A DNA stretch of 64,000 nucleotides from a virus, in the IMG/VR virus record IMGVR_UViG_3300038415_000126, positions 1-64,000 of that record; one strand, given 5' to 3'. This document shows, piece after piece, positions 4,031 through 23,297 of this stretch (its first letter is position 1; the number at the start of each line of letters is the position of its first letter). Under the pieces are notes generated by a model that had not been told where the DNA came from, made no database searches, and saw only the letters and a program-made list of their open reading frames with translations. The position numbers and the translations under genes are program-made.

Positions 4031-4253
4031 TGGGTTCTTCATCTTGGTTCTGGTTGATGGTTCTTTGAGCCTGTGAGTACCAAGCCCACACGTAGGGTCC
4101 GTACAGAGCCTCAAGGACGTTGGTGACGATGTGCTTCTCAAAGTCTGGAACCGAGCGTCCTGCCGCAAGCTCATCACACACGTAGACTGCGTACTCCTTG
4201 ACCGTCGACCAGTCAGGGTTGTCATTCAACTTGGGTCGCTTGTTATCGCTCAT
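4002..4253 (-). CDS. hypothetical protein
   Basis: 83 aa, acidic tail (NQDEEPNEDHP). ATG overlaps the TGA of the HD hydrolase gene (ATGA). No known domain. Confidence 0.65.
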   Translation of the reverse strand: MSDNKRPKLNDNPDWSTVKEYAVYVCDELAAGRSVPDFEKHIVTNVLEALYGPYVWAWYSQAQRTINQNQDEEPNEDHPSIPT

Positions 4254-4762
4254 TGGTTCTTCTCGGCTAGTATCTTGTTGATCTCGGCGATGACCGCCTT
4301 ATGGCTCTTGGTGAGCTTGCGAGTGGCGCGTAAGTGCTTGATAATCAAGGGAGTATCTTCCACCTGCTTGAGGGAGGGGTTGTCCATGAGATTCGCTAAC
4401 CTATCGCAAAGCTTGAGGAAAAGAGCATAGCTGGACATCCCCTGCATGTGGGACTTCAAGTACTCCAACTTGCCAACCTTCTTGAGAGCTACCGGGTCTG
4501 AGCTCAGCTCGAACACGATAGAAGCGATGGGCATCCCAAAGCGTCGAAGGATCTGATTGTAGGTCGCATCGGTATCCTCAACGGTATCATGGAGGATAGC
4601 TGCACAGATCAGAATCTCCTTGGCCTTCGACTGCTTGTAACTTGCAGCCAGGTAGGACACGAGTATCGGGTGGGCGATATAGTCAACCCCGGATACCTTG
4701 CGTTTCTGACCCCGATGCTTAGAAGTGGCGTACTTGATGGCTCTTAGTATGAGTTCACTCAT
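4250..4762 (-). CDS. stand-alone HD-domain alarmone-type hydrolase
   Basis: 170 aa, the size of a single-domain (p)ppGpp hydrolase of the RelA/SpoT-MESH1 type. Residues H16, H31, H58-D59 and the HDTVEDT segment (58-64) match the HD metal site of that family. It lacks a synthetase domain. Family members remove the 3' pyrophosphate of (p)ppGpp; in a phage this could cancel a stringent response or a toxic synthetase. Transcribed from a TTGAGA/TAATAC promoter whose -10 ends 5 bases before the ATG, so its message may be leaderless. Hydrolysis of another nucleotide is possible. Confidence 0.85.
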   Translation of the reverse strand: MSELILRAIKYATSKHRGQKRKVSGVDYIAHPILVSYLAASYKQSKAKEILICAAILHDTVEDTDATYNQILRRFGMPIASIVFELSSDPVALKKVGKLEYLKSHMQGMSSYALFLKLCDRLANLMDNPSLKQVEDTPLIIKHLRATRKLTKSHKAVIAEINKILAEKNQ

Positions 4763-4767
4763 ACTCT

Positions 4768-4796
4768 GTATTACGCGCGAGGAGGAATAATCTCAA
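4768..4796 (-). promoter_or_regulatory. TTGAGA-17-TAATAC promoter, leaderless type
   Basis: -35 TTGAGA (4791-4796) and -10 TAATAC (4768-4773), 17 bp apart, with CGCGCG before the -10. The -10 ends 5 bases before the ATG at 4762. It lies inside the end of the upstream gene. Confidence 0.7.
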
Positions 4797-5187
4797 CCAC
4801 TTTATTCCAGTTGTCCCACTCCTCCTCGGTCACTACCAGAGCCCCAACCGGCAATGGGTTATTTCCTTCCCCATGGAGGTTCTCGCCATTGAGGCGGGTG
4901 ATGTGGCCTTCCGGATGGCGGATAAAGACCATGCATCCCGCGTGCGAAGACTTGCCCTGCCAACCATTCTTCTTTTCCGACCAAACGACCAAGTCGTTAT
5001 GTTCCAATGGTTTACCGCAAGTGGCGCAGCAGTAAGGGTGGATCTTGACCCGTCCGAGCTTGGGGTACTCGACATGGTCCTCCATATTCGACTTGGGCTT
5101 CTTTTTTATCTGGTGGCGACCGCAGACAATAGCTATGGTCAAGGCCACCAAAAATGAGATGATGAAACCAACTGCTGGGTGGTTCAT
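4771..5187 (-). CDS. membrane-anchored zinc-ribbon protein
   Basis: 138 aa. Residues 6-24 (VGFIISFLVALTIAIV) form one membrane span; then CCATCGKPL near 55 and a later Cys/His pair (SHAGC) suggest a treble-clef or ribbon. Overlaps the NAD kinase gene by 4 bases. Its stop codon lies in the promoter of the next gene. Confidence 0.7.
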   Translation of the reverse strand: MNHPAVGFIISFLVALTIAIVCGRHQIKKKPKSNMEDHVEYPKLGRVKIHPYCCATCGKPLEHNDLVVWSEKKNGWQGKSSHAGCMVFIRHPEGHITRLNGENLHGEGNNPLPVGALVVTEEEWDNWNKVVEIIPPRA

Positions 5188-6002
5188 GTCATAACCATGG
5201 TCAGGGGTTCTGGGGATACCCTGAAGTTGACTTGTTGTTCGTACTCGACGGGGAATGAGAGGAAGGGCCCGTCGAGGTACAGGATGCCGTCGCTGACCTT
5301 GGAGATGAGCTTGAAGCTCTTACCGCTTTGGAACCGGTTCAGAGTCTTCCCAGGGGCTCTGTAGGGTTCCCTGATGATGGCTTGAAGCTCCTTGGTCTCA
5401 GGTGGGTAGCTGGTCCCGCCTGCTGACCTCATGGCGCCGGTCGAGCCCGCTCCGGTCCCCACCCAGATCCCAGAGCACCCGTAGCGATCCTGTCCCAGGA
5501 TGAATTTGGTCATAGCGGCAGGGCAAACATGGGAGAATAGGGCCTCATTGAGGACTCGACTGCAGACTACCTCTCCGTCAATTGAGACCTGGAGTCGGGT
5601 GATCTTTTTGACTGAACTCTTGAAGTTCTTGGCAAGAAGAATTCCCCTGACGTCCTCTGCGCGAGCTGCGCAGAGGTAGCCAACCGAGGTCTTGGGATCT
5701 GAGTTGACTCCAAGGATGGGGATGCCCGCGGGGACCTTGTGGGAAGCCGCGAGGAGCGTCCCGTCACCGCCGACCGTGATGACAACCCTAGTATCCTCGG
5801 GAACCTTAAACTCCTTCTCTGGACCGTTGACCACTACGGCTCGGTACTTGAGTTTGCTCAGCTCGTGGAGGACCCTATCAACCGACTTCGAATGCCTTTG
5901 GTGTACCGCAAACGCGCGTTTTGCAGCCGAGGAGTCAGCCACATTGAACTTGAGCTGATCCCAAGTACTACGTTTTAGAATGACAATTGCCTGCTCTCTC
6001 AT
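5184..6002 (-). CDS. nadK: NAD kinase
   Basis: 272 aa, usual length for ATP-NAD kinase, which phosphorylates NAD to NADP. VVITVGGDGTLL (residues 73-84) contains the family-defining GGDGT; ILGVNSDP and a glycine-rich GTGAGSTGA segment later match the second conserved block. A phage-borne copy could raise NADPH for nucleotide reduction or change the NAD pool against NAD-depleting defences; that role is inference. Coupled to neighbours by ATGA overlaps. Confidence 0.92.
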   Translation of the reverse strand: MREQAIVILKRSTWDQLKFNVADSSAAKRAFAVHQRHSKSVDRVLHELSKLKYRAVVVNGPEKEFKVPEDTRVVITVGGDGTLLAASHKVPAGIPILGVNSDPKTSVGYLCAARAEDVRGILLAKNFKSSVKKITRLQVSIDGEVVCSRVLNEALFSHVCPAAMTKFILGQDRYGCSGIWVGTGAGSTGAMRSAGGTSYPPETKELQAIIREPYRAPGKTLNRFQSGKSFKLISKVSDGILYLDGPFLSFPVEYEQQVNFRVSPEPLTMVMT

Positions 6003-6196
6003 CGGGGAATCCTCAAATTAGCTCTAAGTACTGCTTGTACAACTTCCAGCGGAGCAATACCAGTGGAGATTCTCAAACTACCGCTTTCGAGGATCTCGAC
6101 AATGCAGTCGTACTCCCAGGTGAATAAGCAGGCAGCCCAGGTCCCACCAACCTGACGGACTTGCCACTCCCACCCAAGGGGAAGTGAGGGGAACTC
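5999..6196 (-). CDS. small phage-type protein, start unresolved
   Basis: About 65 aa: LPLGWEWQVRQVGGTWAACLF, then IVEI, then APLEVVQAVLRAN. This W-rich layout ending in APLEVV.AVL.AN recurs in small phage proteins of unknown function. No ATG, GTG or TTG is available in frame near the upstream stop, so the start is approximate and may be a rare codon. Confidence 0.55.
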   Translation of the reverse strand, partial: EFPSLPLGWEWQVRQVGGTWAACLFTWEYDCIVEILESGSLRISTGIAPLEVVQAVLRANLRIPR

Positions 6197-6422
6197 AGTG
6201 GGTGTGCTCTTCGACGTATCTTTGGATGCAGACGATTGAGCATGCGAAGCGGAGGCCGTCGTCTCCCGGCGGGTAGGTGTCCGTGACGAACCAGCCCGGT
6301 GGGACTTGGCTGCAGGACACCCATTCGTTCCAGACAAGGAGCGACGGGACTTCAGCTTTCTTCCTGCATTGACAGCATTCAATCGTGGTACGGTCAAGTT
6401 CGGTCTCCTTGGTATCGGCCAT
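6195..6422 (-). CDS. zinc-binding small protein
   Basis: 75 aa. CCQCRKK near residue 17 and two later Cys (FACSIVCIQ) suggest a zinc-bound fold. The ATG lies 11 bases after a GGTGTA element that sits in the loop of a 9-bp hairpin (6423-6431 with 6443-6451). Confidence 0.65.
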   Translation of the reverse strand: MADTKETELDRTTIECCQCRKKAEVPSLLVWNEWVSCSQVPPGWFVTDTYPPGDDGLRFACSIVCIQRYVEEHTH

Positions 6423-6437
6423 GCAAGGTAGCTACAC

Positions 6438-6653
6438 CTACGCTACCTTGCACCCTACACTGGACCCTGTTACTTGAACCGCTCTCCGGAAGAACATCTC
6501 ATCGACCACTCGTGTCGGATACGGGTACTTGCCCTTGATTAGTTCCAGATGAAAGTATGGCTCTTCAGCCTGGATGGTGATGTTCGCCAGCTTCCAAACC
6601 CGAGGGCCCTCCTTCCAGTGAGTACCTAGTTCCTTGTCAGTGAGTCCGAACAT
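6438..6653 (-). CDS. hypothetical protein
   Basis: 71 aa, no motif recognised. Read from a TTGAGA/AGATAC promoter directly in front of its ATG. Confidence 0.6.
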   Translation of the reverse strand: MFGLTDKELGTHWKEGPRVWKLANITIQAEEPYFHLELIKGKYPYPTRVVDEMFFRRAVQVTGSSVGCKVA

Positions 6654-6655
6654 GA

Positions 6656-6862
6656 TCAGTATCTCGCGCGAGAAACTGGTTTCTCAACCAGTTTCTTTAG
6701 CTTCTTCCTCAACGCGGCTCGCGCTCGATTGGCGACCCATCCAATCAATCCAATAGTGGTATTATCACTACTATTGAAACGGTCATAGGCTCTCAGGCAG
6801 GATAGACATAGACCACCAGGGACTCTAGCCGGACCTTCACAGATGATGCAGGGATAGGTCAC
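6656..6862 (-). CDS. small zinc-ribbon protein
   Basis: 68 aa from a GTG at 6862 that overlaps the upstream TGA (GTGA). CIIC and CLSC, 13 residues apart, form a zinc ribbon; the C-terminal 25 residues are Arg/Lys-rich. Nucleic-acid binding is likely but unproven. Confidence 0.65.
   Translation of the reverse strand: MTYPCIICEGPARVPGGLCLSCLRAYDRFNSSDNTTIGLIGWVANRARAALRKKLKKLVEKPVSRARY
6659..6687 (-). promoter_or_regulatory. TTGAGA-17-AGATAC promoter, leaderless type
   Basis: -35 TTGAGA (6682-6687), 17-bp spacer ending CGCGCG, -10 AGATAC (6659-6664), 5 bases before the ATG at 6653. It overlaps the end of the 6656-6862 gene. Confidence 0.6.
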
Positions 6863-7209
6863 CTTTGAGGTTCCTCGTACAGACAGAGGCGATGACGCGG
6901 AATGTAGACCGGGGGCTTGGCGCAGATGGTTGTTTGGGGCTTGTCCAAGCACTTGTCGGTCCAGTACTGACGGAGGATCTCGTAATTGTGGTCGTAGGCT
7001 TCTTGTCGAGCATCTGACTCAGCATCCTCTTGCCGGTAGTGAGCAATCTCTTGCCGGTAGCGAGCAATCCGTTGTTCATGGGTTTCAAACTTTACCGCGT
7101 GAGATCTGATCCAAATGTTGGATGCAGTAGGGCGAAGAGCGAGGATACAGAGGATCGAACCACCTATGATGATTACAGTAATCAGCCACACGAACCACGG
7201 AGTCTTCAC
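6859..7209 (-). CDS. single-pass membrane protein with coiled coil
   Basis: 116 aa. One N-terminal membrane helix (residues 5-24), then a charged helix with tandem RYRQEIAHYRQED repeats, then a Cys-containing tail. Overlaps the DUF262 gene by 4 bases. A spanin- or anchor-like role cannot be decided. Confidence 0.65.
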   Translation of the reverse strand: MKTPWFVWLITVIIIGGSILCILALRPTASNIWIRSHAVKFETHEQRIARYRQEIAHYRQEDAESDARQEAYDHNYEILRQYWTDKCLDKPQTTICAKPPVYIPRHRLCLYEEPQR

Positions 7210-7727
7210 AATTCACCTTTCTCATGCGCGAGCATGATCCGCACCCTGTCCAGCTCGGCTTGGGTGTGCGGAGTCCCGCCGGCATTGATGTTGAGGTACA
7301 ACTGAAGGACCTCGACTCTGGTTTCAAGGCTGCAGATGCGCCACTTGAAGCCCATGTGAAGCCGCATACGGTCCGTGAATTCAGACCGATAGTACCCATG
7401 AGCCTTGAACTCATCCCTGAGCCATGCTCGAACCGCTTCGAGCCGTTGCTTACCATCGACGATCTCGTAGGAACCAATCTCTATGTTGGTCCCCCAACCT
7501 ACCGCATTGAAGGTGATGTTCTTTCCAACTTCACCACCTTGCATGACATACTCGACGTAGTCCTGCTGTTGTTGTGGATTCCACACGTGGGCTCGTTGGA
7601 AGTCAGGTTCAAGGTTCAGGCCATCTTCAGTGATCGCTTGTTGGATGAACCCCTCCAAGAAATGCCAATCGACATCGACCTCATAGTGCGCGCGGGGAAG
7701 CAGGGGTATGTCTCGGAAAAAGGCCAT
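7206..7727 (-). CDS. DUF262-domain protein
   Basis: 173 aa. DFQRAHVWNPQQQQDYVEYV near residue 42 and YEIVDGKQRLEAVRAWL near residue 88 are the two signature blocks of DUF262 (the ParB-like fold also in GmrSD type IV restriction enzymes). The second, HNH-bearing half is absent, so only the nucleotide-binding half is present. In a phage it may act as regulator, decoy or anti-restriction factor. Confidence 0.85.
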   Translation of the reverse strand: MAFFRDIPLLPRAHYEVDVDWHFLEGFIQQAITEDGLNLEPDFQRAHVWNPQQQQDYVEYVMQGGEVGKNITFNAVGWGTNIEIGSYEIVDGKQRLEAVRAWLRDEFKAHGYYRSEFTDRMRLHMGFKWRICSLETRVEVLQLYLNINAGGTPHTQAELDRVRIMLAHEKGEL

Positions 7728-7730
7728 GAT

Positions 7731-7958
7731 TCAAGCACTCAGTTCGGGGTAGGTTCGCTTGAAGGCGGCTTGGACAGACTCACCGATTCGAAGCCTGGTT
7801 GCATTGTACAGATAACGTCGAGCTTGAGTGACATCTAGCTCAGCCTGCTGACGCTGTTCGAGGGTTGACTCTGGTGACTCAAACACCTTCTCGTGATGAG
7901 CACAGGCCCTCAGGTACTGATTGTAGGCGTTGGTTTGTGGTGCGTTACGCTTGGCCAT
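7731..7958 (-). CDS. helical hypothetical protein
   Basis: 75 aa from ATG 7958. Long amphipathic helix rich in Gln/Arg/Ala. Lies 4 bases upstream of the DUF262 start. Confidence 0.6.
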   Translation of the reverse strand: MAKRNAPQTNAYNQYLRACAHHEKVFESPESTLEQRQQAELDVTQARRYLYNATRLRIGESVQAAFKRTYPELSA

Positions 7959-7963
7959 TGGTT

Positions 7964-8140
7964 TCAATCTTTAACGAGGCTCATGGCCTCAGAGATACTG
8001 CCGAACTGGATTTGCAAGGTGATCTCGTAGGCAAGTTTCATCGAGACCGGCCGAACCACTTCTCGGAGTGCAGGAAGTGAGAATGACCTGGCTTCTTCAA
8101 CTGTCCAACCAAGGACTTTTGCGATTAGTTCGTGCAGCAT
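7964..8140 (-). CDS. hypothetical protein
   Basis: 58 aa. Real because its ATG lies 4 bases after a strong TTGAGA/TAATAC promoter and its stop sits 5 bases before the next gene. Helical; no family recognised. Confidence 0.65.
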   Translation of the reverse strand: MLHELIAKVLGWTVEEARSFSLPALREVVRPVSMKLAYEITLQIQFGSISEAMSLVKD

Positions 8141-8144
8141 GCTA

Positions 8145-8174
8145 GTATTACGCGCGAGGTGGGTGGGATCTCAA
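8145..8174 (-). promoter_or_regulatory. TTGAGA-18-TAATAC promoter, leaderless type
   Basis: -35 TTGAGA (8169-8174), 18-bp spacer ending CGCGCG, -10 TAATAC (8145-8150), 4 bases before the ATG at 8140. Confidence 0.7.
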
Positions 8175-8509
8175 CCAGTTTCTCTAATCGGCCTAGCGGC
8201 TATGAGAATCTCGGCTCTCTGAACATTGAAGGTCTCCAACCTTCTTTTTGCCCGCAGGAGATCTAGCTCAAGATCCTGCTTCATTTCGTTCAAGGCGGTC
8301 TCGATGACGGAAGGCAGATCTCCGACAGCTTCAACCCTATTACAATCCTTTGGGTACTGGACGATGGCAACGGCCTTACCTTTCATCCACCCGAGATTCA
8401 ATTGGACTTTGATTCCGGTGAGCCCGCCTGCTTCATACGTGTACTTATGCTCCTCTGTAGGGATACGGGTAAATACAAGGCTACCAACTCTCAGGGTGTC
8501 TTCAGGCAT
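8171..8509 (-). CDS. hypothetical protein
   Basis: 112 aa from ATG 8509, 8-base overlap with the upstream gene. Beta-rich first 50 residues, then a charged coiled-coil helix (ETALNEMKQDLELDLL). Function unknown. Confidence 0.65.
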   Translation of the reverse strand: MPEDTLRVGSLVFTRIPTEEHKYTYEAGGLTGIKVQLNLGWMKGKAVAIVQYPKDCNRVEAVGDLPSVIETALNEMKQDLELDLLRAKRRLETFNVQRAEILIAARPIRETG

Positions 8510-9053
8510 TGGACTTCTCTTCTGGTAAGGCTCCAACGAGTGTGATAATCGCCCGCACGCGAGCTTCGGAGAGCCCTTGAAGGCGTAGGCCAAAGTTACA
8601 CTCAGTGGTAGACGTTGGGTGGATCGAATCAGCGTACTCGGGGAAGTCTTTTCGGAGGCGGCCGAGGGCGGCTTGGACTGCTTGACGTTGAGCCTCATCG
8701 AGAGCCCGGCGCTCATGCATCCGTTTGACCCAGCTGTTCTGCTTGATGGCCTCATCATATACCTCTTGGTCGAAGTCTTCTAGGTTCTCTTGCAGGGCCA
8801 ACCCTCGGTAGAGGATCTCACCGTCGGGCTCCATTCGAATTGTGTCGAAGGATACTACGAGAACACCCTTGTCAACCCCTTCAGTGACGGTCATCGCCCG
8901 GTACACCTCAGGATCCTCAGTGACATTGAGGCTGAACCAGTACCAGTTTTGAGTCTTCTCAGACTTTATTCCGACTCCTTCGAGCTTTGCTTGGAGAGAC
9001 AGGATGATGTTTTGGGCTCTGGTTTCGGCTTCGGGGCTGCTGTAGTGAGTCAT
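8502..9053 (-). CDS. hypothetical protein
   Basis: 183 aa from ATG 9053, with AGGA 12 bases upstream. Contains a beta segment like small stress or ligand domains, then a Gln/Ala-rich helix. Starts inside the 3' end of the zinc-protein gene (95-base overlap). Confidence 0.65.
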   Translation of the reverse strand: MTHYSSPEAETRAQNIILSLQAKLEGVGIKSEKTQNWYWFSLNVTEDPEVYRAMTVTEGVDKGVLVVSFDTIRMEPDGEILYRGLALQENLEDFDQEVYDEAIKQNSWVKRMHERRALDEAQRQAVQAALGRLRKDFPEYADSIHPTSTTECNFGLRLQGLSEARVRAIITLVGALPEEKSNA

Positions 9054-9357
9054 CAGGGTGTTCTTCCTCGATTGGTACAATGGGTGCTGGCGGGTAGTCT
9101 CGGTCGAGGCCACGTGCGACCTCACCGTAGGTTGGTCGATGAGCTATCTTCTCGCGACGACACCAGACTTCTTTAGTCGGGACGTCGGAGGGCTCTCCAC
9201 GGGCCGCGCAGAGAGTACAGATCGCCACCTGTGCACCTGGCTTACGGTCAGGGAGCGACGTCCACCAAGGCGAAGCCGTACGACAGAAACAGCACTTCTC
9301 CTGCTCAGTATTCTGAGTCAGTTCGTCATCAGGCTCTCGGTGGATGGGGATTGGCAT
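8959..9357 (-). CDS. zinc-binding hypothetical protein
   Basis: 132 aa from ATG 9357. CCFCRTA and CTLCAARG, 24 residues apart, suggest a zinc ribbon. Basic C-terminal tail overlaps the next gene. Preceded by a TTGAGA/TAATAC promoter with an 18-base leader containing GAGGAT. Confidence 0.6.
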   Translation of the reverse strand: MPIPIHREPDDELTQNTEQEKCCFCRTASPWWTSLPDRKPGAQVAICTLCAARGEPSDVPTKEVWCRREKIAHRPTYGEVARGLDRDYPPAPIVPIEEEHPDDSLQQPRSRNQSPKHHPVSPSKARRSRNKV

Positions 9358-9375
9358 TTGGCGTATCCTCACAGA

Positions 9376-9404
9376 GTATTACGCCCCAGCTCCTCAGTTC
9401 TCAA
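9376..9404 (-). promoter_or_regulatory. TTGAGA-17-TAATAC promoter
   Basis: -35 TTGAGA (9399-9404), -10 TAATAC (9376-9381). Unlike most copies it leaves an 18-base gap to the ATG at 9357, with a Shine-Dalgarno-like GAGGAT. Confidence 0.65.
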
Positions 9405-9442
9405 CCAATTACTTGTGAAAAGTATATGGCCGGCTATAAAGT

Positions 9443-10090
9443 CTATATAACCCAGGGTCTTTTGTACCGGCTAGGTCTGAGTATAGTACCGAGTGGTACT
9501 AGTCCTGAGCACCCCTTAGCGTCGAACAGCACCCAACATGGTTTACCGGCGACGAGGGCAGTGAACTTGCGAAGAGCCGGAGAGTAGAATGGTGCTGGAT
9601 CCTTTGAATGCCATCGTTGGCAGGTGGAACACGTTGTGGGTCCGGGAAGACCAGTCCACCCAAAAAAGTCAGGTACCTGCTCGGCGTTCAAGAAGCCCAG
9701 GGCTTCTTTTGAGTAGGCCATCGCAATGTCGACTGTTGTTCTTGCACCCTTACGACACCACAGGTCAATCAGGTCAAGGGTCCCTTCGTAACTTGGACCC
9801 ATGAAGGACTTTGAGTAGCTGACCAAGTTCATCGCTAGTGAGTTGACCATATCGACGATATCCTTCTCAAATCCTGAGATACGGATACGAGGTAGTGTGA
9901 CCTCCAAACTATTCACCTCTCGTGTACACTCAGCTATTCCAGATTCAGACCAGTTAGTAACCCCCAGAAGGCTATGACCTATCTGCCCGTCAGCCCTGAC
10001 TAGGAACACGTCATCTTTGATCTCAACCCTCCTAAGTAACTTGAGTGGATCGTTCCCTTTCCTGGTGAGCGCCCATAACCGAGTGTTCAT
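9443..10090 (-). CDS. C-terminally tagged hypothetical protein
   Basis: 215 aa, ending RPSRYKRPWVI. The tag here is written with different synonymous codons (GTT ATA TAG instead of GTG ATC TGA), which argues that the peptide itself is selected. CSTC plus later Cys may bind metal. ATG overlaps the upstream stop (TGATG). Confidence 0.75.
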   Translation of the reverse strand: MNTRLWALTRKGNDPLKLLRRVEIKDDVFLVRADGQIGHSLLGVTNWSESGIAECTREVNSLEVTLPRIRISGFEKDIVDMVNSLAMNLVSYSKSFMGPSYEGTLDLIDLWCRKGARTTVDIAMAYSKEALGFLNAEQVPDFFGWTGLPGPTTCSTCQRWHSKDPAPFYSPALRKFTALVAGKPCWVLFDAKGCSGLVPLGTILRPSRYKRPWVI

Positions 10091-10248
10091 CAACGCTTGC
10101 CTTCGATGAGGTGAAGTTCCTTGAGTAGCTTGTCAGCCATGTCGCGCTTACCAGCTCGTCTTGCCCAATTGATCTTCAGGAGAAGGGCTAGACAAGCTTC
10201 CAACTTGGGGGATGGCTCACGCTCAGGTTGAACTTCAGTTTGGGGCAT
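10090..10248 (-). CDS. small helical protein
   Basis: 52 aa, coupled at both ends (start overlaps upstream stop at 10235, stop overlaps next start as TGATG). Predicted helical hairpin (KLEACLALLLKINWARRAGK). Function unknown. Confidence 0.65.
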   Translation of the reverse strand: MPQTEVQPEREPSPKLEACLALLLKINWARRAGKRDMADKLLKELHLIEGKR

Positions 10249-10588
10249 CAGCGCCCTCCCCACAGGGTATCACTTCGAGGGGGTACTTTGCTAAAGGCCA
10301 AGCCATTAATCGAGCCAGGTACACGAGCTTGCAGCCTAATTCCATGTAAGCTTGCTCGTACCTAGGACGACCTTTCGGGAAAACCCAGATGGAATAGTTT
10401 GGGGCTTCCTCCAAGGTCAATACAGGAGGGGGAGCTCCTTCATATGGTATGCCTCGAAGGATCGTGAAGTCGAGTGACCCTCCAAACAAGTCAGCGGCCA
10501 GGTAGATGAACTCCTGAGCCTTGGCGAAGTCCTCGACCGATACGAACAAACCACCGTGCTCTCGAACGTTAAACTCTACTTTTGGCAT
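10235..10588 (-). CDS. hypothetical protein
   Basis: 117 aa, mixed alpha/beta, no motif recognised. Confidence 0.6.
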   Translation of the reverse strand: MPKVEFNVREHGGLFVSVEDFAKAQEFIYLAADLFGGSLDFTILRGIPYEGAPPPVLTLEEAPNYSIWVFPKGRPRYEQAYMELGCKLVYLARLMAWPLAKYPLEVIPCGEGADAPN

Positions 10589-10591
10589 GGG

Positions 10592-10894
10592 TTACACCAA
10601 GAAGTTACTGAGTAGCTTCTTGGACTTTCGTAGGTTGGTGATCAGGTCAGCTCGTGCGGCATTTTCAGTCTTACCGGTACCCCCAAGGGTTGGACTTCCG
10701 AGGGGTAGTTGCACTGTGAAGCTCCAAGAATGGTCCCCGAACTTGTTCAAGGTGATGTGGACATCGAAGCGGTTGTACGTGTTGGTCCACATGTCAATCC
10801 TAGGGTCCTTCTCAAGCTTCCACCCTAGGACGTACTTGATGCTTAATTCTTCCGGTTTGGTCTTAGCTTTGGCTCTGGTCTTATCTTTAGGCAT
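10592..10894 (-). CDS. paralogue family W-F-R protein (copy 1)
   Basis: 100 aa. Shares order and spacing with the products at 22252-22539 and 36381-36656: a start-proximal LGW/LGF segment, N.W then an I...HSWSF.V strand, then a TE.AAR helix. Three scattered copies point to a phage-specific family; function unknown. Confidence 0.65.
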   Translation of the reverse strand: MPKDKTRAKAKTKPEELSIKYVLGWKLEKDPRIDMWTNTYNRFDVHITLNKFGDHSWSFTVQLPLGSPTLGGTGKTENAARADLITNLRKSKKLLSNFLV

Positions 10895-15955: not shown

Positions 15956-16200
15956 CAGATCACCGGCTTCCTCTCGTACCGAGTTGGGATCATTGACTTG
16001 TATGCCTTATTCACCGCTTTTTCGAACCTACTCCTGAGCTCTGGGCTACTAAGGAGTGCGTCCTCTAGTCTCATAGCTAGGTCCCAGTGCTTGTCACACA
16101 TTGGGATTGGGGGTCGAACTCCGTCTGGATCTTCAAGGTGGTGGGTCACCGGATCTGAGCAGGGCCCTAGCAGGCCAGTACATACTTCAGGTTCGCTCAT
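15955..16200 (-). CDS. C-terminally tagged small protein
   Basis: 81 aa, ending PTRYERKPVI. Contains MCDKHW and an early Cys pair, possibly metal-binding. Confidence 0.65.
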   Translation of the reverse strand: MSEPEVCTGLLGPCSDPVTHHLEDPDGVRPPIPMCDKHWDLAMRLEDALLSSPELRSRFEKAVNKAYKSMIPTRYERKPVI

Positions 16201-16472: not shown

Positions 16473-16750
16473 CAGATCACCGGTTCCCGCTCGTACCGAG
16501 TCGGTGGGTCAACTTCCACGATCTCAATTCTCTTGATGTCAACTTCGTAGTTAGTCACTATCAAAGCCAGACCCTCGTTACCAACAATCTTCTCCCAGGT
16601 ATCCCGAAACTCCTCGACCTCTTTATCAATTAACCCTTTGACGTAGACTAGACAGATTTGACTATCATCAACCTCGACGGTCTGGATCGTAGCCTCACCT
16701 ACTTCGAGGACATTGACCGGAAGTAACTTGACTGTAAACCGTTTAGGCAT
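16472..16750 (-). CDS. C-terminally tagged small protein
   Basis: 92 aa, ending PPTRYEREPVI. Beta-rich body with VEVDD, resembling the MPTIEV group at 21655 and 52159. Confidence 0.65.
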   Translation of the reverse strand: MPKRFTVKLLPVNVLEVGEATIQTVEVDDSQICLVYVKGLIDKEVEEFRDTWEKIVGNEGLALIVTNYEVDIKRIEIVEVDPPTRYEREPVI

Positions 16751-16758
16751 AATGGGAC

Positions 16759-17511
16759 TTACCCACCGTCGTCCATACCATCTGTCTCAACGACAGATGT
16801 GTAGTCCTCATCAAGTGCATGGGGTGGTCCATGCTTTGGGTCCATGAGCTTCATCCCATCCGGGAAGCGTCGTTTGATGGTTTTCAACCACCCATGGGTA
16901 TGAAGGTCTGAAACTAGTACAGTCAGATCACGCATCGAGTAGACATCCATCTGAAGAGGGCCCATCTTGACGACCCAGGAGTCCTTTCCTCCCTTGGGCT
17001 TCCAGGTGATGCCCTCTTCCCTGATACCCCCTTGGAAGGGCCACTCGACGGGTTCAACGAGGGGGCTACAGTCCAACGGTCCCCATTCCATTCCCAATGA
17101 GTCCGTGAAGGTGATGGTGTCCTTCGGAGTCACCCCAGTATCATGGTTGAAGTCACTAGTCGGATCAGTGACCCATTCATTAGAAGCCCACTCCCCAAAC
17201 CAAGACCCACTTCGAATCTTCTTGACACTCAGATCAAGTGACTCGATTTTGCTTATGTATTCGAGAGCTCTATGAAGATAGGCTTCCGCGAGACCTTCTG
17301 CATAAGGTACGAGGGTTGAAATCTGGATGTCATGGGGTCGCTTACGAAGAGGCGCCAGCATCGCCCAGTAGCCATCAATCTCATAGTTGTCGTGGATCTT
17401 CCACGGGAACCCTGTCTGGTCTAGTAGGATAGCTTCCGGTTGCCACATCGGAGGGGTCGGTAAGAAGACCAGTTCCAACGGTGTGTGCTTACTGACATTT
17501 GATCTCGCCAT
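16759..17511 (-). CDS. hypothetical protein
   Basis: 250 aa, Trp-rich, no recognised fold. ATG lies 14 bases after a GGTGTAA element, so it heads the 13.6-17.5 kb operon. Confidence 0.65.
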   Translation of the reverse strand: MARSNVSKHTPLELVFLPTPPMWQPEAILLDQTGFPWKIHDNYEIDGYWAMLAPLRKRPHDIQISTLVPYAEGLAEAYLHRALEYISKIESLDLSVKKIRSGSWFGEWASNEWVTDPTSDFNHDTGVTPKDTITFTDSLGMEWGPLDCSPLVEPVEWPFQGGIREEGITWKPKGGKDSWVVKMGPLQMDVYSMRDLTVLVSDLHTHGWLKTIKRRFPDGMKLMDPKHGPPHALDEDYTSVVETDGMDDGG

Positions 17512-17557
17512 GGCAATCTAGCCATTACACCTGATTGACCAATGAATCAATCTCTCT

Positions 17558-17746
17558 TTAGTCACTAGGGTCCTGAAAGTCAGCGGGTACTGTAAACCCG
17601 CAGTCATCGCAGTCAATAGTGCTGGTTTTCCTGTAGCCAGCTCGCTGCTTTGAACCACACCAAGGACACGGGGAGCACCCGTAGATGTTCACTAGCTCGA
17701 CGAGTGGATCCCGAGTCACCGTGTTGGATGATGCTTCGATGTTCAC
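17558..17746 (-). CDS. Lar-like zinc-ribbon protein
   Basis: 62 aa. CSPCPWCGSK followed 18 residues later by CDDCGF is the arrangement of small Lar-type (restriction alleviation) zinc ribbons common in phages. The similarity rests on the PCP.CGS block only; an anti-restriction role is inference. Confidence 0.65.
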   Translation of the reverse strand: MNIEASSNTVTRDPLVELVNIYGCSPCPWCGSKQRAGYRKTSTIDCDDCGFTVPADFQDPSD

Positions 17747-17750
17747 GACT

Positions 17751-18017
17751 TCAACCTCTTAGCCGACTGAGGACAACATCCCGCAACTCCGGACCATACG
17801 TGTCCGCAATGGCTGGGTCAAGCTTCGACAGGATTCGGTCGAGCTTCATCCCAGCATCCTCGGCCTCTTGTACGAAGTGTTTCCAATCAGGGATGCAATT
17901 GCGGGAGATCAATGAGTCGAAGATGACGTCCAAGGGGAGCCCCTCGGTCTCGTACAGCCGGAATATACCCCGGATAACGGTTCTCCCGTCGGTTGTCTGG
18001 CCACTTGAAGAGAGCAC
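17751..18017 (-). CDS. hypothetical protein
   Basis: 88 aa from a GTG at 18017 sharing its G with the upstream TAG. Helical, no motif. Confidence 0.6.
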   Translation of the reverse strand: MLSSSGQTTDGRTVIRGIFRLYETEGLPLDVIFDSLISRNCIPDWKHFVQEAEDAGMKLDRILSKLDPAIADTYGPELRDVVLSRLRG

Positions 18018-18253
18018 TAGTCCAACTCCCCTATGTGCACCTTCGGGATAACCTTGAGGAACTCGTCGAGTGTGTAAACCGTAGGGTTCTCGATGCCATT
18101 CTCTTTGCACTCGTCAATACAATGACTGATTGAGAACCAGTTTTGAGTAATCCGAAACTCCTCGTACAGAAGCCTTGCCACCCCTCCTGGGATCTCCGGG
18201 TCGATGTCGCCCATGAGTACATACCCGACCAGCTTTTTCTCTGTAAGAGGCAT
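18017..18253 (-). CDS. hypothetical protein
   Basis: 78 aa, helix-rich with an early hydrophobic strand (KKLVGYVLMGDIDPEIPGGVA). Coupled to both neighbours. Confidence 0.6.
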   Translation of the reverse strand: MPLTEKKLVGYVLMGDIDPEIPGGVARLLYEEFRITQNWFSISHCIDECKENGIENPTVYTLDEFLKVIPKVHIGELD

Positions 18254-18711
18254 CAGTTCGGCGCCCCCCTACCAGTAGGCGCGAATGGGGTATGCGCATG
18301 AGGCTTGCCCGTGTCGCCACAGACATGACACTCGCGGCAGATTGGGCAGACTATACGGTCACACTTCTCGCACTTAGGGATGCCACCTTGGGCGAGCATC
18401 TCTTCCATCAACTCCCGACCTGTTTGCGCCATACCATCTCGGATGGACTTATCATCCTCCTCAGAGTGGGCTTTCAAGTAAGCATCGACTGTATCGAGAT
18501 TGCCTATCCTTTTGGCTATCTCGGATGCTACCCAAAGTAAGGACCGGACTTCCAGCAGGACCGCTGGTGTCTGAAGCAGCTCGTAAGTCTTATCATCCCC
18601 GAGTTGCTTGGCTGCCGCTACGGTCTTTCCGAACTCTATGAGTATCCGGAGCATTGTCCGACCTGAAAGGGTCAGCCCCTTCTCATCTCTTCCTGATTGT
18701 TGGTCACCCAT
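18253..18711 (-). CDS. zinc-binding helical protein
   Basis: 152 aa: helical first 110 residues, then CEKCDRIVCPICRECHVCG, four CxxC-type pairs that could bind two zinc ions. Divergent from the plus operon at 18797. Confidence 0.65.
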   Translation of the reverse strand: MGDQQSGRDEKGLTLSGRTMLRILIEFGKTVAAAKQLGDDKTYELLQTPAVLLEVRSLLWVASEIAKRIGNLDTVDAYLKAHSEEDDKSIRDGMAQTGRELMEEMLAQGGIPKCEKCDRIVCPICRECHVCGDTGKPHAHTPFAPTGRGAPN

Positions 18712-18773
18712 AAATCACCAAAAAGTGCACCACTAAAGTCCAAAGCTGTCATGAAGTCAACAACCATTGAGTA

Positions 18774-18797
18774 TTTTGGTGTAGTGTTACACCAAAA
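18774..18797 (+). promoter_or_regulatory. palindromic operator overlapping GGTGTA element
   Basis: TTTTGGTGTA and TACACCAAAA form a perfect 10-bp inverted repeat around GTGT. It contains GGTGTA on both strands and abuts the ATG at 18797, so it may serve both divergent operons or bind a dimeric repressor. Confidence 0.55.
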
Positions 18798-19381
18798 TGC
18801 CGATGCCGACCAGAAGAGCCCCAAAGACACCGATCCCCAAAGATGACCCTCTCGCCCTCATCGACTTGGACGGTACTATAGCCGATTACAACACCAAGAT
18901 GGATAAGGAGTTGGCCAGGCTGGTTGCGCCGGGGGAGACCGGCGTAAAGGGTGAGTACTTGGAGAACCGGCGCAAGTTGATCTCAAGTAGACCAGGGTTC
19001 TATTTGAACCTGAAGCCTCTCAAGTTAGGGTTCGAGGTGCTGGACCTGGTTCGAACGATAGGGTTCGAACTCGTAGTACTCACGAAGGCTTCGGTGGACG
19101 TACCCAACTCGTGGTCTGAGAAGGTGCAATGGGCTCAGAAGTACCTACCTGATGCTTCAATCACGATTTCGCAAACCAAAGAGCTTGTCTATGGTCGAGT
19201 ACTTGTCGACGACTGGCCAGAGTACTATGAGGCTTGGCTTCAGAACCGACCCAAGGGGCTAGTGATTGCGGTGGCTCACCCTCACAATGACAGGCCTACC
19301 AAAGACCAGCGCATCATCCGCTATGATGGGACCAACCTTGCCCAAGTTGAAGAAGCCTTGATCAAAGCATACAACCGATAG
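18797..19381 (+). CDS. HAD-family 5'-nucleotidase-like phosphatase
   Basis: 194 aa. LALIDLDGTIADYN (D23, D25) is HAD motif I; VVLTKAS and VLVDDWPEYYEAW match motifs II and IV. Size and motif context fit the 5'(3')-deoxyribonucleotidase branch, which dephosphorylates nucleoside monophosphates. It heads a plus operon with a nucleoside hydrolase, consistent with nucleotide turnover. Confidence 0.8.
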   Translation: MPMPTRRAPKTPIPKDDPLALIDLDGTIADYNTKMDKELARLVAPGETGVKGEYLENRRKLISSRPGFYLNLKPLKLGFEVLDLVRTIGFELVVLTKASVDVPNSWSEKVQWAQKYLPDASITISQTKELVYGRVLVDDWPEYYEAWLQNRPKGLVIAVAHPHNDRPTKDQRIIRYDGTNLAQVEEALIKAYNR

Positions 19382-19389
19382 GACATCCC

Positions 19390-19554
19390 GTGGAAGTAAC
19401 TGTAAAGACAAGAGCTGAAGCTCACAAGATCGCCCGTGAGTACCTGCAAGAAGAACGGGTACTGAGTGACAACGCGATTGACCACTACATAGTGAACCAG
19501 TTGCTCGACAAGCTCGGCTTCCCGCACCGAGATCCACCCTCTGAAGAGTTTTGA
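19390..19554 (+). CDS. small helical protein
   Basis: 54 aa from a GTG, filling the gap between the phosphatase and the nucleoside hydrolase. Helical (AEAHKIAREYLQEERVLSDNA). Its TGA is 2 bases before the next ATG. Confidence 0.6.
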   Translation: MEVTVKTRAEAHKIAREYLQEERVLSDNAIDHYIVNQLLDKLGFPHRDPPSEEF

Positions 19555-19556
19555 CC

Positions 19557-20453
19557 ATGCAAGAGTTCGTATTCGACATGGAGACAAGTGACCCAGACGA
19601 CGTGTTCGCTCTGGCGCTACTCGCTACCCACCCGCGGTCAAAGCTGGTAGGGGTGACCATTCATCCGGGAGGGCTTGATCAGGTTGGGGTGGTTCGTCAC
19701 ATCCTTGGCCGCCTGGGTTGCTCTGGGGTACCTATTGGGACAGGGGCGCCTAAAAGCGCTAAGTCTCGTGTCTCCCAGTTCCACTATGAGTGGTTGGGTC
19801 AGGTTCCAGAGAGTAAGCCTGAAGGAACCGCCACGGAGGTTATCCGGGGCATACTTGACTCCTACCCTCATGCCCATCTAGTGACAGGCGCGGCTCTCAC
19901 CAACATTGCTGAGGCGCTCAAGGCCCTAAGCCCGCGGTTCTTCATTGAGTGGACCTGCCAAGGTGGCTTCGCCGGAGACAACATCGTCCCGCCGGAGCAT
20001 CGGCTTCCCAAGTTCGCTGGTAAGCTCACCTGCCCGACCTTCAACCTCAATGGTGACCCTAGGGCAGCCCAGGAGCTTCTCTGCAGAGACTTCTCTCCCT
20101 TTTGGGTCAGGAGGATGGTCTCGAAGAACGTCTGTCACGGTGTCTTCTGGACGCCCGAGGTCAACGACCGAGTACCCTCTGGGGTTCACGTGGGCCTCGA
20201 CCTCATCAAGGAAGGCATGGGTCACTACTTTCTGAAGCATCCGGATGGAAAGGCGCTTCACGACGTGATTGCGGCTGCAGCAGCCCTCAGCCCAACTATC
20301 GGAACTTGGTCGAAAGTTCACCCCTACCGAGAACGCGGGGAGTGGGGTTGTCGAGAGTTCACCGATCTGGAGATGGCCGCCGATGCACCCGCGCCACCGG
20401 AGGTCATGATCTCGTTCGACAACGATGCTTTTGAAAGGACCCTGGCGAGCTAG
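19557..20453 (+). CDS. inosine-uridine type nucleoside hydrolase
   Basis: 298 aa, normal family length. VFDMETSDPDDVFALALL near the start is the DxxxxDPDD metal-ribose motif of nucleoside hydrolases, which split nucleosides into base and ribose; HDVIAAAAAL near residue 235 carries the late His. ATG 19557 chosen over an overlapping TTG at 19551. Could salvage or remove nucleosides, or act on nicotinamide riboside-like molecules. Confidence 0.87.
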   Translation: MQEFVFDMETSDPDDVFALALLATHPRSKLVGVTIHPGGLDQVGVVRHILGRLGCSGVPIGTGAPKSAKSRVSQFHYEWLGQVPESKPEGTATEVIRGILDSYPHAHLVTGAALTNIAEALKALSPRFFIEWTCQGGFAGDNIVPPEHRLPKFAGKLTCPTFNLNGDPRAAQELLCRDFSPFWVRRMVSKNVCHGVFWTPEVNDRVPSGVHVGLDLIKEGMGHYFLKHPDGKALHDVIAAAAALSPTIGTWSKVHPYRERGEWGCREFTDLEMAADAPAPPEVMISFDNDAFERTLAS

Positions 20454-21175
20454 GGCTTAGCGTCGTCAGTGACCTTCTCACCGAGGACTGGTTCTGGGAC
20501 GTCACCCACGACCTTGTCAGACATCCATTGAAGTAACCCGCTGAACCTATTGTAGATCCACAGTGAGATGTGGCGGGCCAGGTCGTGGAATATGGTACCC
20601 ACTACAGAGAATACCCATAAGCAGACCCAACCTGCAACCTTAGCCTTGTAATCTCGTATCCTTGGTGCTTTGAGGAGTGAGGTGTTCTTGTAGAGCTTTC
20701 CGGCTAGGCATTCACGGTCAGTCTGCTTGATGACTTCCTCATCCCTTGAGTAACCCTCAAGGTACTCAATCAACTTCTTGACTTGAGCGTCAGTCTGCTT
20801 GATGACTTCCTCATCCCTTGAGTAAGGGCTCTTGGCTTCGATGCGAGCACGAGCCCGCTCCTGGTCATCGTGGAACTCGTCTAGGGCCTCTCTACGAGCA
20901 TCGTTGAACTTGTGCAGGAACAAGAGCCACTTAAAGACCATCCAGATAGAACCACAAGGGAAGTACCCAAGTATGCATGACAGTGTGACAACGAAGTGAT
21001 TCCGGAAAGCTTCTACTATCGAAAATACGTGGAAGTAGTGGGTAGCTATTAGCCCTACAATGAGCAGAACAACGGACCTTTTATAGAACTCCAACTCTAC
21101 TAGGATCACCATCACTAGGTAGAGAGCCACTTCGACAGTGAACAACCAGGGTGCAAGACCAAACCAGAGGAGCAT
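20450..21175 (-). CDS. multi-pass membrane protein with internal duplication
   Basis: 241 aa. Three hydrophobic segments in the first 90 residues and one or two near residues 185-210, separated by a charged cytoplasmic loop. The loop contains YSRDEEVIKQTD twice, 24 residues apart, encoded by an exact 37-base direct repeat (20717-20753 and 20789-20825). Function unknown. Confidence 0.7.
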   Translation of the reverse strand: MLLWFGLAPWLFTVEVALYLVMVILVELEFYKRSVVLLIVGLIATHYFHVFSIVEAFRNHFVVTLSCILGYFPCGSIWMVFKWLLFLHKFNDARREALDEFHDDQERARARIEAKSPYSRDEEVIKQTDAQVKKLIEYLEGYSRDEEVIKQTDRECLAGKLYKNTSLLKAPRIRDYKAKVAGWVCLWVFSVVGTIFHDLARHISLWIYNRFSGLLQWMSDKVVGDVPEPVLGEKVTDDAKP

Positions 21176-21362
21176 AGGCGCGGAGAATGCCAGTCAACTA
21201 TGGCGTTAGTCAACGGTTTTATGTGTCAGCCACTCCTATGTGTCCGGCCCGGGAAAATCCCCCACCCTCGGATGACGATTTTGAAAATAGTTCAGCGGGC
21301 CAAAAGTAGGCGCCCCGGTGGCCCCTTTCGATAGAGCCTCGGGCGGGACTAGTAATCCACCT

Positions 21363-21617
21363 TCACGACCGATTCGTCCCGGGACGTGGCTCAGCCTTAC
21401 TACCAGGCTCGATGGAGAGCAAGCCCTTCTCGTGCTTGTCGAGGAACTCGCGCAACTTATCTAGGGGGATCTCAGCAGGGTTGTCCGGGTCGGTCCCGCT
21501 CCTGACGATCAGCTTGCCATCTCGGATGTCAACCAGGTTCTTGAAGCAGAACCCAGGGCCTTGGAGGAGGTTGCCCATAGCTTCACAGATCCACCACTCG
21601 TTTGGGTCAATGGTCAT
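21363..21617 (-). CDS. hypothetical protein
   Basis: 84 aa from ATG 21617, with AGGTGATCTG directly upstream, a near-perfect anti-16S match. Contains EIPLDKLREFLDKHEKG. No family recognised. Confidence 0.6.
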   Translation of the reverse strand: MTIDPNEWWICEAMGNLLQGPGFCFKNLVDIRDGKLIVRSGTDPDNPAEIPLDKLREFLDKHEKGLLSIEPGSKAEPRPGTNRS

Positions 21618-21654
21618 CAGATCACCTATGCTTATCCGGTTTTCTCCCAAGAGG

Positions 21655-22116
21655 CTAGGGTTGCGTAGGTGGTTCTTCTTTTTTTGGCAAATCTTGTCCG
21701 AGGGTTCGGATCACTACCCCGCCTACCCCTGTCTCATGAATAGTAGCGAACGGAAGCAACCTTTTCAGCTTACCCAGATGACCCATGAGGCTCTCTTTGA
21801 AACCATCATGGGTCTCTACCCCTTCAGCGTCTGGGCTAAGGACGGAGAACTCCATTACAAGGCTACCATTACTATCAGCCTCGACTCGAACCTTACCCAA
21901 GCAAGCAACCTGACCCCCATCAATCATCACCTTGGTTATTGGTCTACCCCTAATCTCTCTACCATCTTCGGTGGTGATTGTGCGACCCTCTTGTACCCAA
22001 AGAAGTAGGTCATTCTCACCCACATCAACAACCTGACGAAAGCTCTCAGGTAACTCCATTGCTTGGCGCCGAACCACGAACACCTTGTCAAACTCACCGA
22101 CTTCTATTGTTGGCAT
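21655..22116 (-). CDS. MPTIEV-family hypothetical protein
   Basis: 153 aa from ATG 22116 with GGAGG upstream. The first 20 residues (MPTIEVGEFDKVFVVR) match the product at 52159-52578, so they are paralogues; here the C-terminal tag is absent. Confidence 0.65.
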   Translation of the reverse strand: MPTIEVGEFDKVFVVRRQAMELPESFRQVVDVGENDLLLWVQEGRTITTEDGREIRGRPITKVMIDGGQVACLGKVRVEADSNGSLVMEFSVLSPDAEGVETHDGFKESLMGHLGKLKRLLPFATIHETGVGGVVIRTLGQDLPKKEEPPTQP

Positions 22117-22251
22117 AAAACCTCCAAGTGATGGGTACAATTGGCTTGATGGCGATCTCGGGTGGTAAGCGGGGGTAATGCTTTGAGGATGCTTCGGCGA
22201 TTCATGGGTTACACTTATCTCCATCTTCGCGCATGAGACAGAGTACACCGA

Positions 22252-22539
22252 CTACGGCCCGCGGTCGAGTAGGTACTTCAGCATTTGCCATAGGTCCCGG
22301 AGCTGCTTGTGCATCCGGTTCCTAGCAATCCGTTCGGTTGCCCCACGCGACTCGAACCTCTGACCAGAGATCTCGATAGCGATGCTCCACGTAGTCGGGG
22401 TCAGTACTTGGGGCAAGAACTGGGTGATGTTCAAGCGCAGGTTGCTGTGCTCGACTTCAAGCTCCCACAAGTTGTACCCAGGATGAGTGGATACTTTGGG
22501 CATCGAGAACCCGAGGAGTGTCTTTCGGTCAGGGGTCAC
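22252..22539 (-). CDS. paralogue family W-F-R protein (copy 2)
   Basis: 95 aa from a GTG at 22539. LLGFSM..., NLWELE, TTWSIAIEI and ATERIARNR align with the products at 10592 and 36381. Function unknown. Confidence 0.6.
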   Translation of the reverse strand: MTPDRKTLLGFSMPKVSTHPGYNLWELEVEHSNLRLNITQFLPQVLTPTTWSIAIEISGQRFESRGATERIARNRMHKQLRDLWQMLKYLLDRGP

Positions 22540-22573
22540 TTGGCCAGCCTCTGCAGTTGATCTCGAACGCCCT

Positions 22574-22786
22574 TCATGTTCGCGGGTTCCGGTTGTTGTA
22601 GTCCTCGCAACGAGCAGTCTCGAACTCACGAAGAGCCTGGGTCACCTCAGCATCGCTCGGTTCATGGCCAAGCTCGATTCGAAGGTTCTTGAGCAGCAGC
22701 TCGATACTGACTGAGCCCTGTGGCCCAATAGATCCGACAGGGATGCCGTGTACGATGACCTCTTCAGAAGATTGCGAGCGGCCCAA
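22574..22786 (-). CDS. hypothetical protein
   Basis: 70 aa from a TTG at 22786 supported by GGAGGA 9 bases upstream. Contains VSIELLLKNLRIELGHEPSD. Upstream 145 bases to the next gene are non-coding. Confidence 0.5.
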   Translation of the reverse strand: MGRSQSSEEVIVHGIPVGSIGPQGSVSIELLLKNLRIELGHEPSDAEVTQALREFETARCEDYNNRNPRT

Positions 22787-22931
22787 GGCGTTGTTCCTCC
22801 AGATAGGCCAGGCCGAAGCCTGCTTTCAACCGGGTGAACCAATTCCCGGGTGACGATCGATTATACGAAAGGTTCAAGTCCTTATCGATCCTGGGGTTTT
22901 TGCGGATGACTGACCGCTGTCATTTTACCCG

Positions 22932-23297
22932 TTAGGAGGCCGCCTTGGACCCTCTGCCCACAAGTACACCGGACTTGAGCTCCTCAAGTGTCAAAATCAA
23001 GATCCCAATCTCTTTTGCGCGCCGGATCTCGCTTGCGACCCCAGAGGACAACTCCCACCCGGGTACCAAGACCAGGATATCGCACGTCTCCATGAGCGAG
23101 ATGGCCGCTTCGAGCCAGAACCTGTAGTCCTGAAACTCCGCGAAAGGATGCCAGAATACGTTCGGGCAGATGGGTACCCATCCAGCTCGGAGCACATCCT
23201 CAACAGCCACACGGGCCTTCGAGACGTTGAGTTCGATCTCAGAGATGGTCCCACCACTGTAGGCGCTCGATATGAACGCGCGACCTTTTGGCTTCAT
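22932..23297 (-). CDS. nucleoside 2-deoxyribosyltransferase-like (DUF4406) protein
   Basis: 121 aa. FISSAYSGG at the start, VLRAGWVPICPNVFW in the middle and ETCDILVLVPGWELSSGVASEI near residue 87 follow the DUF4406 / deoxyribosyltransferase fold (YxSxPY..., D..., SxGxxxE). Family relatives cleave or exchange the base of deoxynucleosides or NAD-like substrates. Substrate cannot be read from sequence. Confidence 0.8.
   Translation of the reverse strand: MKPKGRAFISSAYSGGTISEIELNVSKARVAVEDVLRAGWVPICPNVFWHPFAEFQDYRFWLEAAISLMETCDILVLVPGWELSSGVASEIRRAKEIGILILTLEELKSGVLVGRGSKAAS

Follow-up and report, generated by a model that had tools for sequence, protein, structure and literature searches.

The 98,513-base IMG/VR record IMGVR_UViG_3300038415_000126, itself a fragment, carries an NAD kinase of a known enzyme family that has apparently not been described before in phages. 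We analyzed positions 1-64000 of this record (hereafter, the window) and found the gene at 5184-6002 on the minus strand, encoding an NADK2-like protein of 272 amino acids (aa) with a PF01513 match at E 1.2e-8. Phylogenetic evidence places the protein in a small branch made up of viral sequences only, for which myxobacteria are the apparent source, and indicates that phages acquired NAD kinase at least twice. The gene shares a tight run with a predicted MESH1-like small alarmone hydrolase, an enzyme type already known from jumbo phages. We consider it fairly probable that these and other nucleotide enzymes of the window are separately recruited auxiliary metabolic functions, two of them within one gene run, rather than parts of one pathway.

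Predicted fold and active site of the NAD kinase

Profile and structure searches converged on the same family. Human NADK2 was the best match of the phage NAD kinase profile in hmmsearch (E 3.9e-12), and the AlphaFold2 model (mean pLDDT 90.6) presents the NAD kinase fold, with 7r4l, human mitochondrial NAD kinase, as the best solved structure in the fold search (E 2.6e-21). The phage protein resembles NADK2 (7r4l, 7r4j, 7n29) in fold and in an N-(S/T)-D-P-x-x-S-x-G-x-(L/F)-C stretch, but it is shorter (272 aa versus 326-398 aa in the listed chains) and 18-19% identical to it in structural alignments.

The GGDGT, NE, GxGST, and DG motifs look intact. To place them, we used an alignment of 88 rows, comprising the window protein and 87 others that passed a length and coverage filter among 98 loci with a BLASTP match; the L018 locus described below was among those that fell out. 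The GGDGT loop corresponds to Gly78, Gly79, Asp80, Gly81, and Thr82, with Asp80 present in all 88 rows. Asn152, Glu/Asp153, and Gly186 are likewise found in 88/88 rows, Ser187 in 86, and Thr188 in 80, and the window protein is canonical at every one of these positions. Taking the rows with Asp as the canonical form of the site, two substitutions stand out: Ser177 replaces the Asp of the canonical Asp-Gly (Ser in 68 of 88 rows, Asp in 19, Phe in 1), and Ala190, present in 54 of 88 rows, replaces the Tyr of the canonical GSTAY/GSTGY.

A dead or moonlighting protein was considered on account of Ser177 and Ala190 and rejected, as both residues are common in the bacterial branch, including genomes in which this type is the sole match. 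The Ser-Gly type was the best PF01513 match in 8/8 bacterial genomes searched and the sole match at E<=0.001 in four of them; the other four genomes gave additional matches that were weak, with two over the cut-off. Since most bacteria cannot live without NAD kinase, the Ser-Gly type is very likely functional, and the enzyme of the window is probably active. The pattern of conservation suggests that Ser177 and Ala190 mark a subfamily rather than a loss of function.

Viral relatives and phylogenetic origin

An aligned search of viral contigs recovered 16 NAD kinase loci. Three of them, on contigs L009 (459 kb), L010 (116 kb), and L011 (208 kb), are full-length relatives at 43-45% identity to the window protein, with which they have long invariant stretches in common. 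Among bacterial and archaeal genomes, a scan returned 186 relatives, of which 80 were kept, the best of these coming from Polyangiaceae and other Myxococcota. The enzymes of Polyangiales and other Myxococcota (e.g., Sorangium cellulosum, L111) are 35-40% identical to the viral protein and share the Ser-Gly site, GxGST, and DG. They differ from it in two stretches, CPAAMT and CSG(I/L)WVGTGAGSTGA, which are invariant in 4/4 viral rows and were seen in none of the other 84.

Phylogenetic analysis was performed on 76 rows, omitting 12 of the 88: four near-copies of viral rows, six from myxobacteria that we judged to be near-copies of retained rows, and two, L169 and L172, with a partial or divergent appearance. 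The four viral NAD kinases grouped together as a single clade (support 100/99). This clade falls within a set of 14 rows joined at 97/88, the remaining 10 of which are Myxococcota or unclassified delta-proteobacterial. Their bacterial sister group consists of Polyangiales and other Myxococcota at a support of 94/68, which, together with the fork within the viral clade (98/56) and long branches elsewhere (L023, L166), is a weak point of the tree. The tree points to Myxococcota as the source of the gene. Such an origin suggests, but does not show, that Myxococcota are possibly the hosts of a group of very large phages.

Other phage contigs carry NAD kinases of the canonical type. In L017 (7890-8729), the gene is flanked by a T4-type portal gene and a tail sheath gene and runs on the opposite strand; L013 (7974-8813), a T4-like contig, encodes nearly the same protein and has a terminase match ~6 kb away; and in the 545-kb contig L018, the gene stands one open reading frame (ORF) from a glutamine-dependent NAD synthetase, the pair lying within 4776-8687. 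The split between canonical and Ser-Gly types has a support of 100/99 in the 76-row tree and of 100/100 in a 22-row tree, so that the trees support at least two phage acquisitions. The 22-row tree also places L018 apart from L013 and L017 (94/95), and because L018 is a flagged long branch, a third capture is only likely.

Five records of the annotated phage collection that matched NAD kinase were not counted. Four were examined and rejected as mislabeled pieces of bacterial chromosomes: CAKLQH020000004.1, filed as a phage, is annotated with the bacterial chromosome genes mrcB, mutT, and dctA, while in MT835504.1, MT836343.1, and MT835781.1, also filed as phages, the neighbors are TlyA-, ArgR-, FabI-, and RecN-like bacterial proteins as judged by eye. 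The fifth record, H5, shares its organism name and annotation with H4.

A literature search found no phage NAD kinase among the papers listed, although most subscription papers lie outside its coverage, so that this absence is not proof. By term search, neither "NAD kinase" nor "NADK" occurs in the main text of PMC9503650, which surveyed 21,191 viral proteomes for NAD-ADP-ribose systems, and neither "NAD kinase" nor "NADP" in the available part of a study of 224 jumbo phages (PMC7824862). According to the text available for each, Borg elements of archaea hold an NAD kinase within a metabolic cluster (PMC11208441), and the NAD kinase of PMC9224243 is a host enzyme, found not to bind the compound studied.

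The predicted alarmone hydrolase, its neighbors, and the question of a common system

The gene at 4250-4762 (minus strand) encodes 170 aa with an HD domain (HD_4 E 4.2e-11; phrog_990 E 1.1e-27), predicted to be a MESH1-like small alarmone hydrolase with a complete catalytic site. Human MESH1 (HD domain-containing protein 3) matches it at E 4.5e-15. The best folds for its AlphaFold2 model (mean pLDDT 96.2) are MESH1 and bacterial small alarmone hydrolases, the human MESH1-NADPH complex 5vxa being among the closest. The catalytic set H31, H58-D59, E62-D63, D120, and N124 is invariant in all 18 aligned rows, window included, and in a second alignment the H...HD...ED...D...N set is kept in 28 to 30 of 30 rows. 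All catalytic HD/ED/D/N positions of MESH1, the Pseudomonas SAH (6yvc), and the phage HD-alarmone enzymes are thus present in the window protein, which consists of the hydrolase domain alone (HD families only) and has no synthetase domain. Relatives at E<=1e-3 occur in 232 phage records, and a Burkholderia phage BcepSaruman protein is 49% identical. HD-alarmone enzymes have been described in jumbo phages, with a proposed action against the stringent-response alarmone and related immune systems (PMC7824862, in the part available).

Between the two genes lies an ORF of 138 aa (4771-5187, minus strand) that matches no Pfam family and in which a hydrophobic N-terminus and several cysteines were noted by eye. 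The run from 4250 to 6002 is tight: the NAD kinase stop and the start of this ORF overlap by 4 bases, 8 bases separate the ORF from the HD gene, and the HD stop in turn overlaps the following ORF by 4 bases. HD and NAD kinase are therefore probably on the same transcript. Unlike the small alarmone hydrolases in the other records searched, the window's HD gene adjoins an NAD kinase. Upstream of the run, a gene at 7206-7727 (minus strand) encodes a stand-alone GmrSD_N/ParB-like domain of 173 aa with weak PADLOC matches, e.g., to NsnA.

Approximately 13 kb away, two plus-strand neighbors encode further predicted nucleotide enzymes. The first, at 18797-19381, is a HAD 5'-nucleotidase of the NT5C family (194 aa; PF06941 E 2.1e-10), in which DxDGT is kept as judged by eye and which matches the putative 5'(3')-deoxyribonucleotidase 3bwv at E 2.3e-4. 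The second, at 19551-20453 (first ATG 19557), is a divergent IU nucleoside hydrolase of the METxDPDD type (PF01156 E 4.5e-18). Canonical enzymes of this family have a DxDPGxDD calcium site near the N-terminus and a C-terminal catalytic His-Asp. The window protein carries (D/E)METxDPDD in place of DxDPGxDD, as do 5/5 aligned bacterial relatives, and both it and these five retain the C-terminal His-Asp, with GKxxHD common to the relatives. Relatives at E<=1e-5 were detected in 7 of 282 genomes of the phylum of Sorangium, five of them strong at 40-49% identity. A tblastn search of the phage collection gave no match for the nucleoside hydrolase, and a peptide-pattern scan that detects close relatives only found none for it or the HAD protein among viral contigs. 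A possible promoter-like TTGGTGTAG occurs upstream of the HAD gene and of an RNA ligase gene (3 matches versus 0.34 expected), whereas a longer form of TTGGTGTAG gave 1 match versus 0.77 expected.

The fifth enzyme, 2.5 kb beyond the nucleoside hydrolase on the minus strand (22932-23297), is a nucleoside 2-deoxyribosyltransferase-like protein (DUF7768/DUF4406; 121 aa; PF24963 E 8.2e-11; phrog_355 E 2.3e-16). It belongs to a phage family, with one weak tblastn match among annotated phages. Pfam scores of all five enzymes exceed the curated cut-offs. PHROG families matched four of the five, the nucleoside hydrolase being without a match and the NAD kinase match being weak and unnamed (E 0.023). 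The sequence-only reading of this DNA had named these same five enzymes within 4250-23297, and Pfam identifies each of them where that reading placed it.

It had also presented them as a single toolkit, and this part does not hold. The genes lie on both strands with many ORFs between them, and the set is not kept together in viral records. In a chosen set of 37 other ORFs, of which 34 lie in the span or touch it and 3 lie outside, Pfam recognized no nucleotide enzyme and only four zinc-ribbon families, one member each; three further ORFs of the span comprised one GmrSD_N protein and two without a family above the cut-off. These scans covered the ORFs of the span apart from some short or overlapping ones.

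Whole-record family searches led us to reject a five-gene system. HD_4 was found in 9/17 records searched; 12 of the 17 hold an NAD kinase, and four of these 12, the window's record included, have HD_4 as well. In the other three records with both genes, the two lie >100 kb apart, and they are adjacent only in the record of the window. HD_4 was present in 0/3 of the records with the closest NAD kinases, NAD kinase in 0/16 records picked for an HD relative, and PF01156 in 1/23 records searched, which is the window's own. The HD_4 search covered 11 of the 16 viral NAD kinase loci and the record-wide NAD kinase search six of the 16. Because the viral records are mostly fragments, these absences are soft; in the records searched, the HD-NAD kinase neighborhood is not a conserved module.

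We favor, with some confidence, separately recruited auxiliary functions. During infection, the NAD kinase would phosphorylate NAD+ to NADP+, giving more NADP(H) for redox protection and the synthesis of nucleotides. By removing (p)ppGpp or (p)ppApp, the HD enzyme would keep toxic alarmone synthetases or the host's growth control from shutting the infection down, while the HAD protein and the nucleoside hydrolase may break nucleotides down to nucleosides and bases for salvage; the deoxyribosyltransferase-like protein would likewise serve nucleotide salvage. The sequence-only reading had proposed that the enzymes reshape nucleotide and NAD pools or degrade defense signals; the identities it assumed are right and the proposal fits what the families do, whereas their working as one system does not stand. 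The window itself we read as an accessory region in which a large phage has gathered bacterial metabolic enzymes.

Several observations weigh against this interpretation. The NAD kinase scores far below the NCBIfam equivalog cut-offs. The 22-row tree does not settle the position of the viral clade among the Myxococcota rows, and a label-shuffle control of the 76-row tree was uninformative (68 of 500 shuffles as low). The phage nature of the record rests on its IMG/VR label and on phage-type genes: a family search found no terminase (PF03237) in the 98.5-kb record, which is a fragment, and PHROGs named no virion family among 68 ORFs (window 27000-64000 plus the rest of the record, exclusive of the 37 ORFs scanned with Pfam), the names given there being HNH endonucleases, a polynucleotide kinase, a tRNA-His guanylyltransferase, a methyltransferase, and others. 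Neither ribonucleotide reductase (RNR; PF02867) nor ThyX had a match in the window's record, again a fragment. Strong RNR matches occurred in one of seven NAD kinase records versus 4/4 others, with weak matches in a further three NAD kinase records, of which two fell short of the cut-off and the third passed it only with pieces summed, so that a simple supply of NADPH to the phage's own RNR is not supported. ThyX belongs to an NADPH-using family. It was found in 5/7 NAD kinase records versus 1/4 others, a weak hint drawn from small counts that lack independence, G002/G003 and G004/G005 being related pairs. Taken together, the RNR and ThyX counts pull in opposite directions.

The same genes might instead be ordinary salvage and redox housekeeping, picked up without a role in conflict, which is the account that the sequence-only reading had itself set against its proposal. 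Each family is a standard metabolic one and the NAD kinase appears to be a captured bacterial enzyme, yet we regard this account as rather unlikely. The NAD kinase is kept in four viral contigs, with its motifs invariant at 43-46% identity, and other phages have a separate type. This speaks for a use of the enzyme during infection but not for a part in conflict.

Somewhat less likely still is a counter-defense set, in which the HD, HAD, nucleoside hydrolase, and deoxyribosyltransferase-like proteins would mainly destroy defense nucleotides (alarmones, ADP-ribose derivatives, cyclic oligonucleotides). The action proposed for jumbo-phage HD-alarmone enzymes (PMC7824862, available part) would suit such a role, and toxSAS enzymes are, in the source text available, implicated in antiphage immunity; however, a known signal fits the HD protein only, and the genes are not a conserved unit. 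PADLOC, which covers mainly defense and not counter-defense, gave no match for any of the five enzymes.

A coupled NADP(H) valve is improbable. Here the NAD kinase would make NADP+ and the HD enzyme would remove the 2'-phosphate of NADPH, together setting NAD(H)/NADP(H) and possibly shielding from NAD+-cutting effectors. The tight gene run and the closeness of the HD model to the NADPH-bound MESH1 complex are in keeping with it, and MESH1 and the bacterial Mesh1-L enzyme XccSAH hydrolyze NADPH to NADH, as stated in the accessible text of PMC9765508. XccSAH is, however, ~40-fold less efficient on NADPH than Mesh1 in the same text, the substrate is not readable from the HD sequence, and the neighborhood was not found in the other records searched (HD_4 in none of the three closest records, and >100 kb away in the others holding both genes). 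An adjacent kinase and phosphatase of opposite effect would moreover run a futile cycle unless regulated. Equally doubtful is a broader version, in which NAD kinase was captured at least two, perhaps three, times to protect the nicotinamide-nucleotide pool from NAD+-cutting effectors or to feed replication, with the HD enzyme here returning NADPH to NADH for two-way NAD/NADP control. Separately recruited auxiliary functions remain the reading we prefer.

Other features of the record and possible phage control of NADP

The record shows further features in its own right. Small proteins ending in (S/T)RYxRx(W/P)(V/I)I followed by a stop occur at 21 sites in 98.5 kb, versus ~0.0001 expected from residue frequencies. 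Seventeen are on the minus strand of the window (283, 846, 1274, 9469, 13654, 13902, 15059, 15538, 15981, 16498, 38831, 43406, 52185, 52606, 52926, 54987, and 55299), and four more sites are in L002 and L003; 6 other viral contigs have a single occurrence each of the Trp form. Some of the proteins are alike by eye and others are not, and the copy at 52606 follows an in-frame TGA that ends the ORF 52613-52960. The Ser, Arg, and Glu codons of the end-peptide vary, which points to selection on the protein, while GTG (17/21) and ATC (13/21) are favored at its terminus, where they may serve the next gene as a ribosome site. The shared end-peptide may be a sorting, packaging, or adaptor-binding tag.

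At 27666-29639 (plus strand), a protein of 657 aa gave weak Cas12 matches (PADLOC best E 2e-4) and no Pfam, PHROG, or NCBIfam match. It adjoins a CRISPR-like array (30550 to ~32022) in which a 36-base repeat occurs 13 times at a spacing of 60-75 bases, the copies looking identical on visual inspection, followed by more degenerate copies; a phage-borne compact type V system is possible. An Rnl2-type RNA ligase (24238-25176, plus strand) and, overlapping by 4 bases on the minus strand, a polynucleotide-kinase-like gene and a Thg1-type tRNA-His guanylyltransferase gene (43892-44365 and 44362-45132) likely form an RNA-repair set. A ThiF/MoeB-type E1-like adenylyltransferase (32822-33607, minus strand; PF00899 E 4.3e-72) is encoded beside two large proteins (33598-36284) with HExxH by eye and no Pfam family over the cut-off. 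Rfam gave no match in the window, and none of 50,697 phage records came near to matching the 20 kb from 4000 to 24000.

NARP-like NAD+ reconstitution employs NAD+ synthesis enzymes such as NAMPT/NMNAT or Prs, and phages reportedly reconstitute NAD+, as Osterman is said to have described in 2024. No NAD+ synthesis enzyme was recognized among the scanned ORFs of the 98.5-kb record (a fragment with a partial ORF set). Jumbo phages possess NAD+ synthesis systems (PMC7824862, in its available part). Like the NAD kinase described here, the jumbo-phage and reconstitution systems represent phage-borne control of the host nicotinamide-nucleotide pool; they rebuild NAD+, whereas the window's enzyme is predicted to phosphorylate it. 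The published phage control of NAD that we found consists of NAD+ breakdown and resynthesis, and an NAD kinase encoded by a phage would extend it to the NADP branch.

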